DNA of 64,000 nt from Planotetraspora phitsanulokensis (lineage in GTDB: Bacteria; Actinomycetota; Actinomycetes; Streptosporangiales; Streptosporangiaceae): assembly GCF_016863295.1 (NCBI RefSeq), contig NZ_BOOP01000018.1:1-64000 (forward strand), written 5' to 3'. How positions within the stretch are numbered: the stretch's first letter is position 1; each line of letters begins with the position of its first letter. Below, piece by piece: positions 15,184 to 63,722 of the stretch. A program made the position numbers and the translations under genes. The notes beneath the pieces were generated by a model. That model was not told the DNA's origin. It searched no databases and worked only from the letters and a program-made list of their open reading frames with translations.

Positions 15184-15987
15184 TACGGGCAGGACGTGCT
15201 TTCCGGAGACTGGCGGCGCCCCCGGCGGGGGCAGATCCCCAAGGTTCCGGCCGAACCGGACCTCGTCGTCGAGGACGCGGAAGGCCGCTTCTGCGGCGCC
15301 GTCGTGGCCTGCGACAAGGAGGCCGTGACCCTGGAGGACCGATTCGGGCGGCGGCGCGTCTTCCCCCTCGTTCCCGCCGGGTTCCTCCTGGACGGCAAGC
15401 CGGTGACGCTGGTGCGGCCCACCGCCGCACCTCAGGGCGCCAGGCGGAGCGCCTCCGGCTCCATCGCGGTGGAGGGCCTGCGTGCCCGGGTGGCCAGGGA
15501 GAGCAGGATCTACGTCGAGGGCGTGCACGACGCCTCCCTTGTGGAGAAGATCTGGGGCCACGACCTTCGCGTGGAAGGCGTGGTGGTCGAGTTCCTCGAA
15601 GGCGTCGACGATCTGCCGGCCATCGTGGCGGAGTTCGCCCCCGAGCCGGGCAGGCGCCTGGGGGTGCTGGTCGACCATCTCGTGCCCGGCTCCAAGGAGA
15701 GCAGGATCGCGGCCCAGGTGACCGGTGACCACGTGCTCATCGTGGGACACCCGTACGTGGACATCTGGCAGGCGGTCAAGCCGACGGCCCTCGGCATCAA
15801 GGAGTGGCCGGACGTGCCTCGCGGGATCCCGTGGAAGGAAGGCGTGATCGCCGCCCTGGGCTGGCGGATGGACCCGCAGGAGGCCTGGCGGCACATCCTC
15901 GGACGGGTCGAGACCTTCACCGACCTCGAGCCCCAACTCCTCGGACGCGTCGAAGAGCTGATCGACTTCGTCACCGCCCCCGCCTGA
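15181..15987 (+). CDS. DUF3097 family protein with TOPRIM-like motifs
   Basis: A 268-residue conserved actinobacterial protein that commonly neighbours hrcA and hemW. The middle part reads SRIYVEGVHDASLVEKIWG and, about 45 residues later, VLVDHLVPGSKE. This spacing and the conserved Glu and Asp resemble the TOPRIM fold of primases and topoisomerases, which binds Mg2+ and acts on phosphodiesters. The N-terminal 90 residues form a beta-rich region. No biochemical role is known to me, and nucleic-acid or nucleotide chemistry is inference. The ATG at 15181 appears to be leaderless. Confidence 0.8.
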   Translation: MYGQDVLSGDWRRPRRGQIPKVPAEPDLVVEDAEGRFCGAVVACDKEAVTLEDRFGRRRVFPLVPAGFLLDGKPVTLVRPTAAPQGARRSASGSIAVEGLRARVARESRIYVEGVHDASLVEKIWGHDLRVEGVVVEFLEGVDDLPAIVAEFAPEPGRRLGVLVDHLVPGSKESRIAAQVTGDHVLIVGHPYVDIWQAVKPTALGIKEWPDVPRGIPWKEGVIAALGWRMDPQEAWRHILGRVETFTDLEPQLLGRVEELIDFVTAPA

Positions 15988-16004: not shown

Positions 16005-16017
16005 CGTGATCATGCAC
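16005..16017 (+). repeat. Single copy of the CGTGATCATGCAC dispersed repeat
   Basis: The 13-mer CGTGATCATGCAC lies in the 37-bp gap between the convergent DUF3097 and hemW genes. Six more copies or near copies cluster at 57837-58103. Confidence 0.7.
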
Positions 16018-16024
16018 GAAATGG

Positions 16025-17245
16025 CTACGGCGTCAGGTCCCGGACCAGGGCGTCGGCGAGCAGCCGTCCACGCAGGGTGAGCACGGCCCGCCCCCGCTTG
16101 AACGGCTCCACCTCGAGCAGGCCGTCTCCCAGAGCCCTGGCGCACGCCGTACGGGCCTGCGGGGGCAGATCGGACAGCGGGAACCCGGACACGAGGCGGA
16201 GCTCCAGCATGATCCGCTCGACGGCCCGGTCTTCCGCGGTCAGCTCCTCCCTGGCGTGTCCGGGAGAGGCCCCCGAGACCAGGCGGGACGCGTACGCCGC
16301 CGGATGTTTGACGTTCCACCAGCGGGTGCCCCCGACGTGGCTGTGCGCTCCAGGGCCGACGCCCCACCAGTCACCGCCGGTCCAGTAGAGCAGGTTGTGG
16401 CGGCAGCGAGCCTCTTCATCGGCCGCCCAGTTGGAGACCTCGTACCACTCCAGGCCCGCGGCCGAGAGCATCTCCTCCGCGATGAGGTAGCGGTCGGCGG
16501 CCACGTCGTCGTCCGGCATCGGCAGCTCGCCGCGGCGGATGCGGGCGGCCAGGCGGGTGCCGTCCTCGACGATCAGCGAGTAGGCCGAGACGTGGTCGGG
16601 CTCGGCCGCCAGGGCGGCGGCCAGCGAGTCACGCCAGTCGTCGTCGGTCTCCCCCGGCGTGCTGTAGATCAGGTCCAGGTTGACGTGGTCGAACCCGGCC
16701 TTCCTCGCCTCCCGTACGGCCTGCTCGGGCCGGCCCCGGGTGTGCCTGCGGTCGAGCACCCTGAGCACGTGCTCGCTGGCGCTCTGCATGCCGAAGCTCA
16801 TCCGGGTGAAGCCGCCCGCCCGGAGCTCCTCCAGGTAGGCCTGGTCGACCGACTCGGGGTTGGCCTCGGTGGTCACCTCGGCGCCGGGCGCCAGGCCGAA
16901 CTCGTCGTCGATCGCCGAGAGCAACCGTACGAGATCGGCCGCGGGCAGCAGGGTCGGCGTGCCCCCGCCGAAGAACACGGTCTCCACCGGCAGGTCGGCG
17001 TCCCCGAGCACGCGCCGGGCGAGCCGTACCTCTTCGATCGCCGTAGCGGCGTAGTCGCGCTGCGACGCCCCCTGGCCCAGCTCGGCGGCGGTGTAGGTGT
17101 TGAAGTCGCAGTAGCCGCACCGCGTGGCACAGAACGGGACATGCACGTAGAAGCCGAACGGGCGTGAACCGAGCCCGTCGAGGGCCGACTGCGGCAGGTC
17201 GCCGGACGCGGGAACGGGATCGCCGTCGGGAAGAGCGGAAGGCAC
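16025..17245 (-). CDS. hemW: Radical SAM heme chaperone HemW
   Basis: A 406-residue radical SAM protein. The [4Fe-4S]/SAM motif is CATRCGYC (CxxxCxxC, about residues 38-45), followed by the GGGTPTLL glycine motif and a C-terminal HemN-like domain. It lacks the extra features of true coproporphyrinogen oxidase and belongs to the HemW group that delivers heme. The start is GTG, preceded by a G-rich stretch. The gene stands alone between convergent DUF3097 and the divergent chitinase gene. Confidence 0.92.
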   Translation of the reverse strand: MPSALPDGDPVPASGDLPQSALDGLGSRPFGFYVHVPFCATRCGYCDFNTYTAAELGQGASQRDYAATAIEEVRLARRVLGDADLPVETVFFGGGTPTLLPAADLVRLLSAIDDEFGLAPGAEVTTEANPESVDQAYLEELRAGGFTRMSFGMQSASEHVLRVLDRRHTRGRPEQAVREARKAGFDHVNLDLIYSTPGETDDDWRDSLAAALAAEPDHVSAYSLIVEDGTRLAARIRRGELPMPDDDVAADRYLIAEEMLSAAGLEWYEVSNWAADEEARCRHNLLYWTGGDWWGVGPGAHSHVGGTRWWNVKHPAAYASRLVSGASPGHAREELTAEDRAVERIMLELRLVSGFPLSDLPPQARTACARALGDGLLEVEPFKRGRAVLTLRGRLLADALVRDLTP

Positions 17246-56974: not shown

Positions 56975-57754
56975 TCAGGCGCACTGGTCGAGCATCACGT
57001 CCTTGTCCGCGGCCGTGACCGGCAGGTCGTACTTGATGGAGACCTGAGCGAACCGCACGGCGTAGGAGCACCGGATGCCCTTGGCCGGCGGCAACCACGA
57101 CGCCGGGCCCGAATCGCCCTTGGCGGAGTTGGCCGAGCCGTCCACCGGCATCAGGTTGAGCGGGTCGTTGGCGATGCGCTTGCGTTCGGTGTCGCTCCAG
57201 CGGGAGGCGCCCATCTGCCAGTCGTAGGACAGCGGCATGACGTGGTCGATCTGGACCTCCGACGCGTCCTCCTTGCGCCATTCGATGGTGTCGCCCGTGT
57301 AGGGGTCGTTCAACGTCATCGAGACGACGACGCAGTCGGAGCCGCTGCGGTACTTGACCTTCTCACCGTCGCGCTTGAGGAGGTCGTTGCGGGTGTCGCA
57401 CCCGTTGTGCGCCAGGGGGACGTCGTCGGCGTTGTCCGCCCACGCGTAGCCGAACTCCTCGCGGTCGTAGCCGGTCTTGGGCCCGCGTCCCTTGGTCTTC
57501 ACCTGGTCGATCAGGTTACGGGCGTCGGTCCGGTCCTTGTCCGAGGTGATCTGGGCCAGGCCCGGCTCGGTGCCGTCCGGGTTGTCCAGGGGGTTCGTGC
57601 CGTGCGACTTCGCGGTGTCGTCGCCCTTGTTGTCGCCCTGGGAGTCCGAACGCCCCGGCGGGTCCAGGCTGAGCCCCTCCGTGGGCCCGCATCCGGCGAG
57701 AACGGCGATCGCCACCGACATACCGACGAAGATCCGAGATCCGCGCCCGCCCAC
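56975..57754 (-). CDS. Secreted HNH-type nuclease lipoprotein (DUF1524)
   Basis: A 259-residue exported protein. A short signal ends in the lipobox VLAGC (Cys near residue 22), and the C-terminal domain has the HNH/DUF1524 signature QIDHVMPLSYDW followed by NDPLNLMPVDGSANSAKGD. Four further cysteines may form disulfides. Such proteins are extracellular or surface nucleases. The GTG at 57754 has TAGGGG 5 bp upstream and gives a compact signal peptide. It is convergent with the response regulator gene, only 3 bp apart. Confidence 0.85.
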   Translation of the reverse strand: MGGRGSRIFVGMSVAIAVLAGCGPTEGLSLDPPGRSDSQGDNKGDDTAKSHGTNPLDNPDGTEPGLAQITSDKDRTDARNLIDQVKTKGRGPKTGYDREEFGYAWADNADDVPLAHNGCDTRNDLLKRDGEKVKYRSGSDCVVVSMTLNDPYTGDTIEWRKEDASEVQIDHVMPLSYDWQMGASRWSDTERKRIANDPLNLMPVDGSANSAKGDSGPASWLPPAKGIRCSYAVRFAQVSIKYDLPVTAADKDVMLDQCA

Positions 57755-57814: not shown

Positions 57815-57836
57815 ATAAACGCCCAATCCCCCTCGC

Positions 57837-58103
57837 CGTGATCATGCACACATTCGTGGAAGACGCCGATGACCCGCCCGCCCGCTGCCCGTGATCACGC
57901 ACGGATTCGGCGATACGCCGCCTGAGCAGCGCGGACACATTTCGTGATCATGCACAGATTCGGCGCGACCCGCCGCGACCTCGAACGACGCCAACCGTGA
58001 TCATGCAGTGGTGGCGCGCGGCCGATCGGCGACCTTCCCGCATGATCACGTACCGATAGCGACCAGGTCGTACGCCGTCTTTCCGAACCTGTGCATGATC
58101 ACG
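57837..58103. repeat. Cluster of CGTGATCATGCAC repeats
   Basis: Six copies or near copies of the 13-mer lie in 267 bp: plus-strand copies at 57837-57849, 57890-57902 (ATCACG variant), 57943-57955 and 57996-58008 (last base G), and inverted copies at 58040-58050 and 58091-58103. Spacing is irregular (about 40-53 bp) and several copies continue into GATTCGGCG. They resemble REP-like intergenic repeats, not a CRISPR. Confidence 0.85.
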
Positions 58104-58112
58104 GCCAAGCCG

Positions 58113-59057
58113 TCAGGCGGCGGGGATCCAGTCCTGCCAGACGATCTTGTTCTGCTCGACCCACTTCTGGGCCGCGGCCTGCGGGCTCAGCTTCTGGACG
58201 GCCATGTCGTACGCCACGGAGTTCTGGTCGTCGTTGGTCCATACGAAGTTCTTGATCAATTCGTATGCCTTGCCGCCCTCGGCCGCGAACTTCTTGCTGA
58301 CGATCTTGTCCAGCAGGTAGGGCGGGTAGTCGCAGGCGACCTTGGCCGGGTTCGCGTCACAGCCGATCGCGTACGGCGGAAGGTTGATCTTCACCAGCTT
58401 GAGCTGGGAGAACAGCCACTGGGGCTCGTAGAAGTACATGAGCAGCGGCGTCTTGTTCTTGTCCGCGTCCTGCGCGGCCTTGATCAGTGCGTCCTCGCTG
58501 CCGGCGTAGACCACCTTGAACGGGAGGTTGAGGTTCTTGATCAGCGCCGCGTCGTTGGTGACATAGGAGGGGTCGCCTGCGAGGAACTGCCCCAAGTTGC
58601 CCGACTTCGCGGTCTGGAACAAGGACTTGTAGGTGGCGAGCTTGTGATAGTCCGTGATGTCCGGATACTGCTTCGCCATCCACTCGGGGACGTACCACCC
58701 GATGACGCCCTTGTTGCCGTCCTCGCCCGCCGTCAGGGCGACCTTCTTCTCGTCGATGTACTCCTTCTTCAGCTCCGGGTGGGCCCAGTTCTCGAGAATG
58801 GCGTCGACCTTGCCGTTCTCGAAGCCCTTCCAGGAGTCCGCCTCCGCGGCCTCCACGCGCTCGACCTTGTAACCCAGCTCGTGCACGAGCAGGTACTCGA
58901 CCACGGCGGCGCTCGCCTCGTAGCCGATCCAGGGGTTGACGGCCAGGCGCACCGTCCCGGCGCCCCCGCCCGGGCCTCCCGCGTTGTCGGAACTCCCGCT
59001 GCACGCGGTCAACGCCAGCGCGATCGTGAGCACCCCGGCAAGAAGTCGGACCCTCAT
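58113..59057 (-). CDS. proX: Glycine betaine/proline-type ABC binding lipoprotein (first copy)
   Basis: A 314-residue OpuAC/ProX-type substrate-binding protein. The signal ends in the lipobox ALTAC, followed by a Gly-rich linker and the binding domain with aromatic residues typical of betaine cages (NPWIGYEASAA, ENWAHPE, WYVPEWM, FYEPQWLF). It should capture glycine betaine or related osmolytes outside the cell. ATG 59057 is set by GAGGTC about 5 bp upstream. It is a close paralogue of the gene at 59189-60169 and is separated from it by a strong hairpin. Confidence 0.88.
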   Translation of the reverse strand: MRVRLLAGVLTIALALTACSGSSDNAGGPGGGAGTVRLAVNPWIGYEASAAVVEYLLVHELGYKVERVEAAEADSWKGFENGKVDAILENWAHPELKKEYIDEKKVALTAGEDGNKGVIGWYVPEWMAKQYPDITDYHKLATYKSLFQTAKSGNLGQFLAGDPSYVTNDAALIKNLNLPFKVVYAGSEDALIKAAQDADKNKTPLLMYFYEPQWLFSQLKLVKINLPPYAIGCDANPAKVACDYPPYLLDKIVSKKFAAEGGKAYELIKNFVWTNDDQNSVAYDMAVQKLSPQAAAQKWVEQNKIVWQDWIPAA

Positions 59058-63167: not shown

Positions 63168-63722
63168 TCTGTTTCCCCTCACTCGGCTATCGCCCGAGAA
63201 GCGGCGTGAACGCCCGGGAACGCCACAGCACGGCGTGGAGATCGTCGCTCGCACGCCGTCGATGAAGAGCTGGGGGTCAACGACTCCTCATTGGGCATAT
63301 GCACAGGAGTTGCGTGATGCGCAACTCATCGTGTTGAACAGTGATGAGGCTAGGCCCCATCAGCCCCACAGATGGGCAGAAATAACACGATAAGCTCCAT
63401 ATCGTGATCATTCAGTGATCTATCCGTGGGGGCCTCGAGTATGCGCCCGTCCGGGCGCGGGAACCACTGCAGGACAGGGAAAGCTGTCGCCCTGGAGGGG
63501 TGCCCGGCCCACCGGCGGCGAAGATCCCTGGTCACCATATGGGACGCGCAACCAGTAAATGGGACGGCACGGCACCCGCCGAGGACGGCGAGGCCACCGT
63601 CGTGAGAACGGCAGGACGCGTGCCGAGACCGGCAAGGCACCCGGCGAGAACGGCAGGGATCGGCAAGGCACCCGGTGGAAAAAGGCGGGAGGCCGGTCGA
63701 GGACTGCAGGTCACCGACCCGG
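63168..63722. other. Intergenic region with the osmoprotectant-operon promoter
   Basis: The 555 bp between proV and the SDR gene contain the proV control region (63283-63327). A further partial copy of the dispersed repeat (CGTGATCATTCAG) lies at about 63403. CGGCAAGGCACCCGG occurs twice between about 63629 and 63680. I see no gene. Confidence 0.5.
63307..63327 (-). promoter_or_regulatory. Perfect inverted repeat over the proV promoter
   Basis: GAGTTGCG (63307-63314) and CGCAACTC (63320-63327) are perfect 8-bp arms around TGATG. On the minus strand TTGCGC within it can serve as -35, with CATATG 17 bp downstream. A repressor bound here would block the osmoprotectant operon. The leader to the GTG start would be about 110 nt. 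Confidence 0.65.

Follow-up and report, generated by a model that had tools for sequence, protein, structure and literature searches.

Facing arms of a 53-bp repeat unit at gene ends in Planotetraspora: probable arrays of protein sites, possibly acting at the borders of transcription units

The array and its repeat unit

The window, by which we mean the whole stretch of 64,000 nucleotides of Planotetraspora phitsanulokensis DNA that was analysed, contains at 57837-58103 two facing arms of a 13-bp core, CGTGATCATGCAC: four copies on the plus strand, at start-to-start distances of 53, 53 and 53 bp, and then two copies on the minus strand, also 53 bp apart. The features of this region, and of a second site in the window, are the following.

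56975..57721, minus strand: neighbouring gene (GmrSD_C / HNH_4 domains) whose 5' end is turned towards the array, 115 bp off (start as given by the gene finder)
57822..57836, plus strand: C-rich, G-poor stretch ahead of copy 1
57837..57849, plus strand: copy 1, exact, outermost in the plus arm; tail box TTCG at 57853-57856
57890..57902, plus strand: copy 2, one mismatch, starting 53 bp past copy 1, with its TTCG tail at 57906-57909
57943..57955, plus strand: copy 3, exact, starting 53 bp past copy 2, with its TTCG tail at 57959-57962
57996..58008, plus strand: copy 4, innermost in the plus arm, with a CAG ending and without the TTCG tail, as is usual for innermost copies
58038..58050, minus strand: innermost copy of the minus arm, two mismatches
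58091..58103, minus strand: exact copy, the outermost in the minus arm; its partner is 53 bp away, and it lies 9 bp past the stop of the minus-strand gene ending at 58113
58113..59033, minus strand: flanking gene for an OpuAC glycine-betaine-type substrate-binding protein, its 3' end towards the array (the start at 59033 is that of the codon-usage gene finder; a longer ORF runs to 59117)
16005..16017, plus strand: lone exact copy, 17 bp past the stop of a plus-strand gene ending at 15987, with the 3' end of a convergent gene at 16025 and no partner at 53 bp

All six copies that the original prediction had placed in this intergenic region, in both orientations, are present with 0-2 mismatches, and the further copy that it had placed at 16005 between convergent genes is exact, with genes ending at 15987 and 16025. 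The partial copy that it gave at about 63403 is also there, but with two mismatches and no partner at 52-54 bp it is indistinguishable from chance. The repeat had been called palindrome-bearing; TGATCA is indeed a 6-bp palindrome, but the 13-mer that encloses it is asymmetric, and the continuation that had been pointed out, GATTCGGCG, proves to be one form of a tail, ARRTTCG. The exact 53-bp spacing, the strict convergent polarity, the second box TTCG and a third box, YGACCTG, had been missed in that prediction.

Allowing up to two mismatches, there are 14 matches in the window against 2.05 expected from composition, and the highest count among 100 shuffles was 7. The source genome (9.17 Mb in 95 contigs) holds 189 exact copies of the 13-mer, with 0 for the reversed control, a pattern that includes CTAG and is a lenient control for short words. 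The dispersed repeat family is thus real and bigger than first noted. Among 60 genomes, source included, the exact 13-mer occurs 151, 505, 583 and 654 times in four congeners and 0-4 times in each of the other 55; two cores 53 bp apart were found in at least 111 stretches of GTDB contigs, all of those listed being from Planotetraspora.

Spacing was measured in 41 loci, the window and 40 of 20 kb picked around arrays, at up to one mismatch and for neighbours less than 400 bp apart. Of 184 pairs of same-strand neighbours, 165 have a spacing of exactly 53 bp and six one of 52 bp; opposite-strand neighbours are convergent 29 times, at 24-170 bp, and divergent in none. From 898 unique copies the unit consensus is CGTGATCATGCAC-ARRTTCG-~13 variable-YGACCTGC-variable, and an arm is a run of such units closed by a last core without a tail. 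In the 67 arms of at least three copies, mean core mismatches rise from 0.21 in the outermost copy to 0.53 in middle ones and 1.30 in the innermost (67, 131 and 67 copies), while the TTC of the tail is present in 82%, 88% and 1% of them. Elsewhere in the window, at ~63560-63690, imperfect GC-rich repeats of the ACGGC / GGCAAGGCACCCGG type were seen by eye between an ABC transporter operon and the next gene.

Placement, selection and hairpins at gene ends

Genes were called with a codon-usage finder written for this analysis, so that gene starts are approximate. There were 306 unique arms, ten of them without a gene on the outer side; of the 296 that could be classed, 192 start at the 3' end of a gene and 95 at a 5' end, and nine lie in predicted ORFs. 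At the 3' ends the distances are short (median 17 bp): in 39 of the 192 the TGA of cgTGAtca is itself the stop codon, 96 start 4-30 bp past the stop and 57 start farther away. On the 5' side they are broad, with a median of 94 bp and only 13 of 95 at 30 bp or less. An arm is present in 71 of 115 convergent gaps longer than 150 bp, 52 of 181 ++ gaps, 41 of 166 -- gaps and 27 of 229 divergent gaps, figures in which only the ratio between gap classes is meaningful because the loci were selected for arrays and some overlap. One-armed arrays are common. In tandem gaps that carry arms, both arms are frequently present (26 of the 52 ++ gaps and 17 of the 41 -- gaps), and single arms in such gaps favour the sense side, 18 against 8 (++) and 17 against 7 (--).

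The same placement was found when eleven genome groups were counted with single copies included (276 runs kept, 103 matches in predicted ORFs left out): 178 runs are at 3' ends and 98 at 5' ends, genome G001 being the exception with four arms at 3' ends and five at 5' ends. In the sampled loci of four other genomes the copies are almost purely intergenic (160 of 166, six being in ORFs). In loci from other genomes, most of them with low counts, an 11-mer gave 45 matches (excluding three loci, from G333, G417 and G230), of which 32 fall in predicted ORFs, so raw 11-mer and 12-mer counts overstate presence in those genomes. The 20 nucleotides ahead of the core have a C/(C+G) of 0.59-0.84 across the eleven groups, against 0.49-0.53 downstream of other genes. 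In G115 the elements are farther from gene ends (median 188 bp), and in G115 and G076 (loci L247-L257) some cores are paired back to back at a distance of 27 bp, which was not seen in the 41 Planotetraspora loci.

In 212 ungapped comparisons of orthologous units, which are not independent because species pairs overlap (131 of 343 units, having alignment gaps, were dropped), substitutions amount to 0.021 in the core, 0.156 in the third box and 0.303 in the spacer. Two positions outside the search word, 17 and 18, have 0 substitutions in 212 each. Per species pair, with 6-44 units each, the core ranges over 0-0.03 and the spacer over 0.17-0.43. We read this pattern of substitutions as functional constraint in place, under strong purifying selection. 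The low-copy genome G000 gave no sign of a loss of constraint, at 6-11 units per comparison.

At six loci, orthologous arrays keep their borders and gain or lose whole units; for one array of G003 there is no equivalent in G000. When units were compared between different arrays of the same genome, in five genomes, none of the 6422 pairs reached 80% identity over the variable columns. Units within one array are sometimes alike, and identical units can stand in opposite arms. Array growth thus looks local, with no recent dispersal of whole units seen in those five genomes. In one locus of G001 (L227, 3878+ and 4196-) the two facing arms share an outer unit that is the same at all 53 bp, which indicates that one arm was copied into the other.

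The boxes AGGTTCG and CGACCTG look complementary, and we considered whether the unit might be an RNA hairpin. Among 540 units (reduced from 607) their pairing gave no covariation, for example 381 observed against 383.7 expected for columns 13/38, and in G001 AGGTTCG has changed to AAGTTCG while CGACCTG is unchanged, so an RNA hairpin unit is rejected. Hairpins downstream of genes were compared at arm ends without an opposite arm within 80 nt and at up to 200 control ends per set. Strong hairpins are rarer where there is an arm: 4 of 41 ends against 99 of 200 (p 1.2e-6), and in a second set 9 of 82 against 81 of 182 (p 2.8e-8). Stabilisation of mRNA ends by hairpins, one of the roles first proposed for the family, is disfavoured by these counts. 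The deficit is weak when judged against dinucleotide shuffles, with p 0.034 and 0.065 for the two large sets from Planotetraspora (a first run, on 47 ends and 150 sampled from 235 controls, gave p 0.016) and no significant difference in three smaller sets (p 0.29, 0.65 and 0.66); in G085 and G001 together even the raw difference in hairpin energy has only p 0.13. The deficit is therefore partly one of composition. As observed, arms tend to occur where the gene lacks a strong hairpin downstream. An intrinsic terminator, that is a G+C hairpin and a T run, is likewise rejected: strong hairpins are fewer, and no T run was seen by eye after the 45 of 145 last copies that were inspected.

Dialects in other genera and families

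Dialects that share the CGTGATC start and have other periods are found sporadically in four other families of the class. Closer to the source, G001 has the form CGTGATCATGCAG-AAG-TTCGG, and G085 (Planotetraspora sp. A-T 1434) has a TTCCCG tail and a period of 53 or 52 bp; the taxonomy puts this last genome in another genus than G000-G004, and its dialect differs too. In genus g86 (G209, G143 and G222; period ~53 bp) all 22 outermost sites, but only 2 of 41 inner ones, are within two mismatches of CGTGATCTTGTAGTTTGTCGC. Genus g55, with 187 pairs in G109 and 41 in G060, has the form CGTGATCTTGCGAATTCTCGCA, which we assigned to that genus because it is present in the loci that remain once those of G143 and G209 are set aside. 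A loose pattern, CGTGATC twice at 51-54 bp, matches in 116 of 130 genomes of the family, but only 0-12 times each outside Planotetraspora, G085, g55 and G143.

In the class as a whole, tandem CGTGATCWTG at 30-60 bp occurs in 19 of 393 genomes, the top counts being 120 in G000, 96 in G230, 88 in G280, 45 in G143, 20 in G417, 17 in G228 and 14 each in G283 and G310; facing exact pairs occur in 6 of 296. The tandem period is 37-38 bp in G230 (a single-contig genome with 288 copies of the 12-mer), 32-34 bp in G417, 33 bp in G333 and 30 bp in G283 and G310. G280 lacks a single tandem period; it has mainly facing pairs, at a distance of 32 bp, and three outward-facing neighbours, and the 12-mer is present 287 times against 0 in its congener G243. 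The matches of G228 mostly belong to a single tandemly repeated 22-mer, CGTGATCATGCAGCCGCTCGGC (contig 9, 47.8-48.1 kb; locus L373 from 8885). An 18-kb stretch contains 16 exact copies of it, so that the core has here become a minisatellite.

Tails are largely uniform inside a genome and different between genomes. At two places common to G333 and G417, members of one genus, the arrays adjoin the same genes and the tails differ, which suggests a concerted change of the tail. Such concerted change of dialect is an evolutionary puzzle, because it requires a large number of sites either to keep pace with a single reader or to be overwritten; dialects of neighbouring lineages would also supply natural specificity variants. 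In G283 and G310, of another family of the class, a compact ++- element of ~70 bp is near-identical at the ten places examined (L364-L372) and has the look of a mobile, REP-like element akin to the arrays. One and the same acyl-CoA dehydrogenase gene has elements at its 3' end in two families, in different dialects (L292 in G230; L252 and L221 in G115 and G209).

Candidate roles and comparison with known systems

The array is very probably a polar, phase-locked row of sites for a putative sequence-specific protein. The asymmetric core, the fixed unit length, selection on boxes and not on pairing, and the polarity away from the gene all argue for a protein arranged head to tail on the DNA; a binding site for a nucleoid protein, which was among the options first proposed, or for another DNA-binding protein is a candidate that forms part of our best explanation. 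The periods of 53, 37 and 33 bp follow no common helical rule, and helical phasing fails in some lineages, since the 37-38 bp of G230 is not an integral number of turns and G280 has no single period. We therefore read the period as lineage-specific, perhaps the footprint of the putative complex in each lineage.

As to function, the start at the stop codon, the bias towards convergent ends, the best-kept outermost sites, the C-rich flank and the few strong hairpins suggest that the arrays end or insulate transcription at the borders of transcription units, which we propose tentatively and with slightly less than even confidence. A row begins at a gene and heads into the intergenic DNA, where it is often met by another row from the opposite gene. 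A polymerase exiting the gene would then meet a row of directional protein roadblocks, with every further unit another opportunity to stop, and the C-rich, G-poor lead stretch is of the kind that Rho can load on as RNA, so that a part for Rho is suggested by base composition. Facing rows would insulate neighbouring units from each other, antisense transcripts included. That a third of the arms (95 of 296) are at gene 5' ends counts against termination; such arms would presumably stop antisense transcripts. Also unfavourable are the split of four to five in G001, the frequent presence of both arms in tandem gaps, the weakness of the hairpin deficit once composition is controlled, the lack of a general helical phasing, the larger distances and back-to-back pairs in G115, and the near-identical compact element of G283 and G310. 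To our knowledge, the ending of transcripts in high-GC actinobacteria without T-tract terminators is poorly understood, and a site family this regular would make the question directly testable. We found no description of these arrays among open-licence papers.

Oriented tandem protein sites after gene ends are known from eukaryotes, where Reb1 and the Sal boxes of TTF-I form roadblock terminators, and by analogy the arrays would work in a similar way. It is possible, if doubtful, that they are a bacterial counterpart of such rDNA terminators, with polar arrays replacing hairpin terminators at many gene ends and a recognition sequence that evolves in genome-wide dialects.

The sites may instead anchor or load a nucleoid-organising or supercoil-managing protein (a gyrase or topoisomerase helper, or a domain-boundary protein) without any stopping of the polymerase. 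The bias towards convergent gene ends, where positive supercoils meet, would fit, as would the fixed period and head-to-tail polarity, the hundreds of copies per genome and the selection on the sites; moreover, PMC2817692 reports REP/BIME sequences as protein binding sites and suggests roles for them in chromosome organisation. A mere anchor has no need to share its TGA with the stop codon, as 39 of 192 arms at 3' ends do, and both the sense-side preference of single arms in tandem gaps and the rarity of strong hairpins at arm-bearing ends count against it. We consider this explanation unlikely; were it true, the arrays would be an unusually dense polar site system.

Selfish REP- or MITE-like repeats, mobilised by a putative enzyme that prefers gene ends and with an order reflecting insertion mechanics, would explain the sporadic distribution (287 12-mers in G280, 0 in G243), the species-specific tails, largely uniform per genome even at the loci common to G333 and G417, the near-identical compact element of G283 and G310, and the copying inside arrays, which has left opposite arms with identical units. 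Such an origin is improbable; against it speak the purifying selection on orthologous units, the occupation of the same loci across species with gain and loss of units, and the 0 of 6422 similar pairs between arrays. Nor is an enzyme apparent: the Y1 (RAYT-type) transposase domain, PF01797, was unmatched in 16 of 20 element-bearing genomes, among them G000, G002-G004, G085, G230 and G280, and matched in G001, G143, G109 and G060, and the 13 predicted proteins encoded between facing arms have no Pfam transposase domain, although a small HTH_17 protein is among them and for three nothing scored above the cut-off.

The original prediction had suggested a REP-like element. According to PMC2817692, REP/BIME sequences occur in hundreds of intergenic copies, clustered and with a species-specific sequence, and in all of this the arrays resemble them. 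Unlike REP/BIME, the arrays are direct repeats in one-way, inward-facing arms whose orientation does not alternate, their core is asymmetric, their unit has no conserved pairing, and they have a fixed, lineage-specific period and strong selection on orthologous sites. Identity with REP/BIME and its RAYT therefore fails on the transposase, on the palindromic hairpin unit and on alternating orientation; the motif words that we searched for did not occur in the accessible portions of two REP surveys (PMC12306157, PMC3733652). What survives of the earlier reading is a family of intergenic repeats with the features expected of sites recognised by a protein; REP membership does not survive, and the stabilisation of mRNA by hairpins is disfavoured.

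The transcribed unit might also be read as RNA, in a 3'-UTR element serving mRNA protection, processing or the binding of a protein to RNA. Polarity along transcription and proximity to stop codons agree with this, and the facing pairs of other genomes do form palindromes, which in some of them can fold into long hairpins where the pairs are close. But the unit has no covariation, RNA has no need of fixed spacing, one-armed arrays are common, and the 95 of 296 arms at 5' ends are antisense to the gene in question; the array had no Rfam match up to E 1. An RNA-level role is, we think, also improbable. Outside the array, a sub-threshold Rfam match to the Glutamine-II riboswitch (window 57304-57351, 17.7 of 33 bits) lies inside the GmrSD_C/HNH gene and is probably due to chance.

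Species-recognition signals for DNA uptake are a very improbable alternative. The dialects of the DUS of Neisseriaceae, as PMC3630211 describes them, have facing pairs associated with terminators, and the arrays resemble DUS in the lineage dialects of their short core and in the facing pairs close to the ends of genes. Intragenic DUS are common (same source), whereas our copies are nearly all intergenic (160 of 166 in four genomes; 9 of 296 arms in ORFs), stand in tandem at fixed spacing and have a tail and a third box. ArgR boxes are scarcely credible: an ARG box of S. coelicolor, AB.SCO5864_0, does hold the exact 13-mer in a fragment shifted by ArgR (PMC5839063), but the domain, PF01316, was not found in the element-bearing drafts G109, G115 and G076 (99, 93 and 90% complete) and occurs once in each of the other 28 of 31 genomes, with arrays or without.

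The arrays are thus filed under none of REP/BIME, DUS and ArgR, and are dispersed intergenic repeat sites only in a wide sense. We know of no link between them and competence. Mycobacterial MIRU are tandem intergenic actinobacterial repeats of ~53-100 bp that adjoin stop codons; by this description the arrays are set apart, as their unit is conserved only in site-like boxes and their arms face each other. The sites matS and those of SlmA and Noc are single palindromic sites of chromosome-organising proteins, similar to ours in length and in being scattered over the chromosome, whereas the arrays stand head to tail at gene ends. A CRISPR array was rejected, since the spacers contain the conserved boxes TTCG and GACCTG. 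A phage or plasmid source for the arrays was rejected: the exact paired 12-mer was unmatched in viral contigs, and the array of the window was unmatched in plasmids.

An autonomous transposon with the arms as its ends was rejected on the content of the intervening DNA: the proteins encoded between facing arms include BipA, CobD, CobS, CobU, an aldehyde dehydrogenase, UbiA, a GNAT protein, an NTP transferase, a DUF309 protein and the small HTH_17 protein. The last, of 67 aa (L095 2569-2772, P. mira), is a small DNA-binding protein found at one locus only. Orthologous genes stand between facing arms in G333 (L318 8151-8969) and G417 (L320 9578-10417), one of them with a sub-threshold REase-like Pfam match of 21.2 of 38.2 bits.
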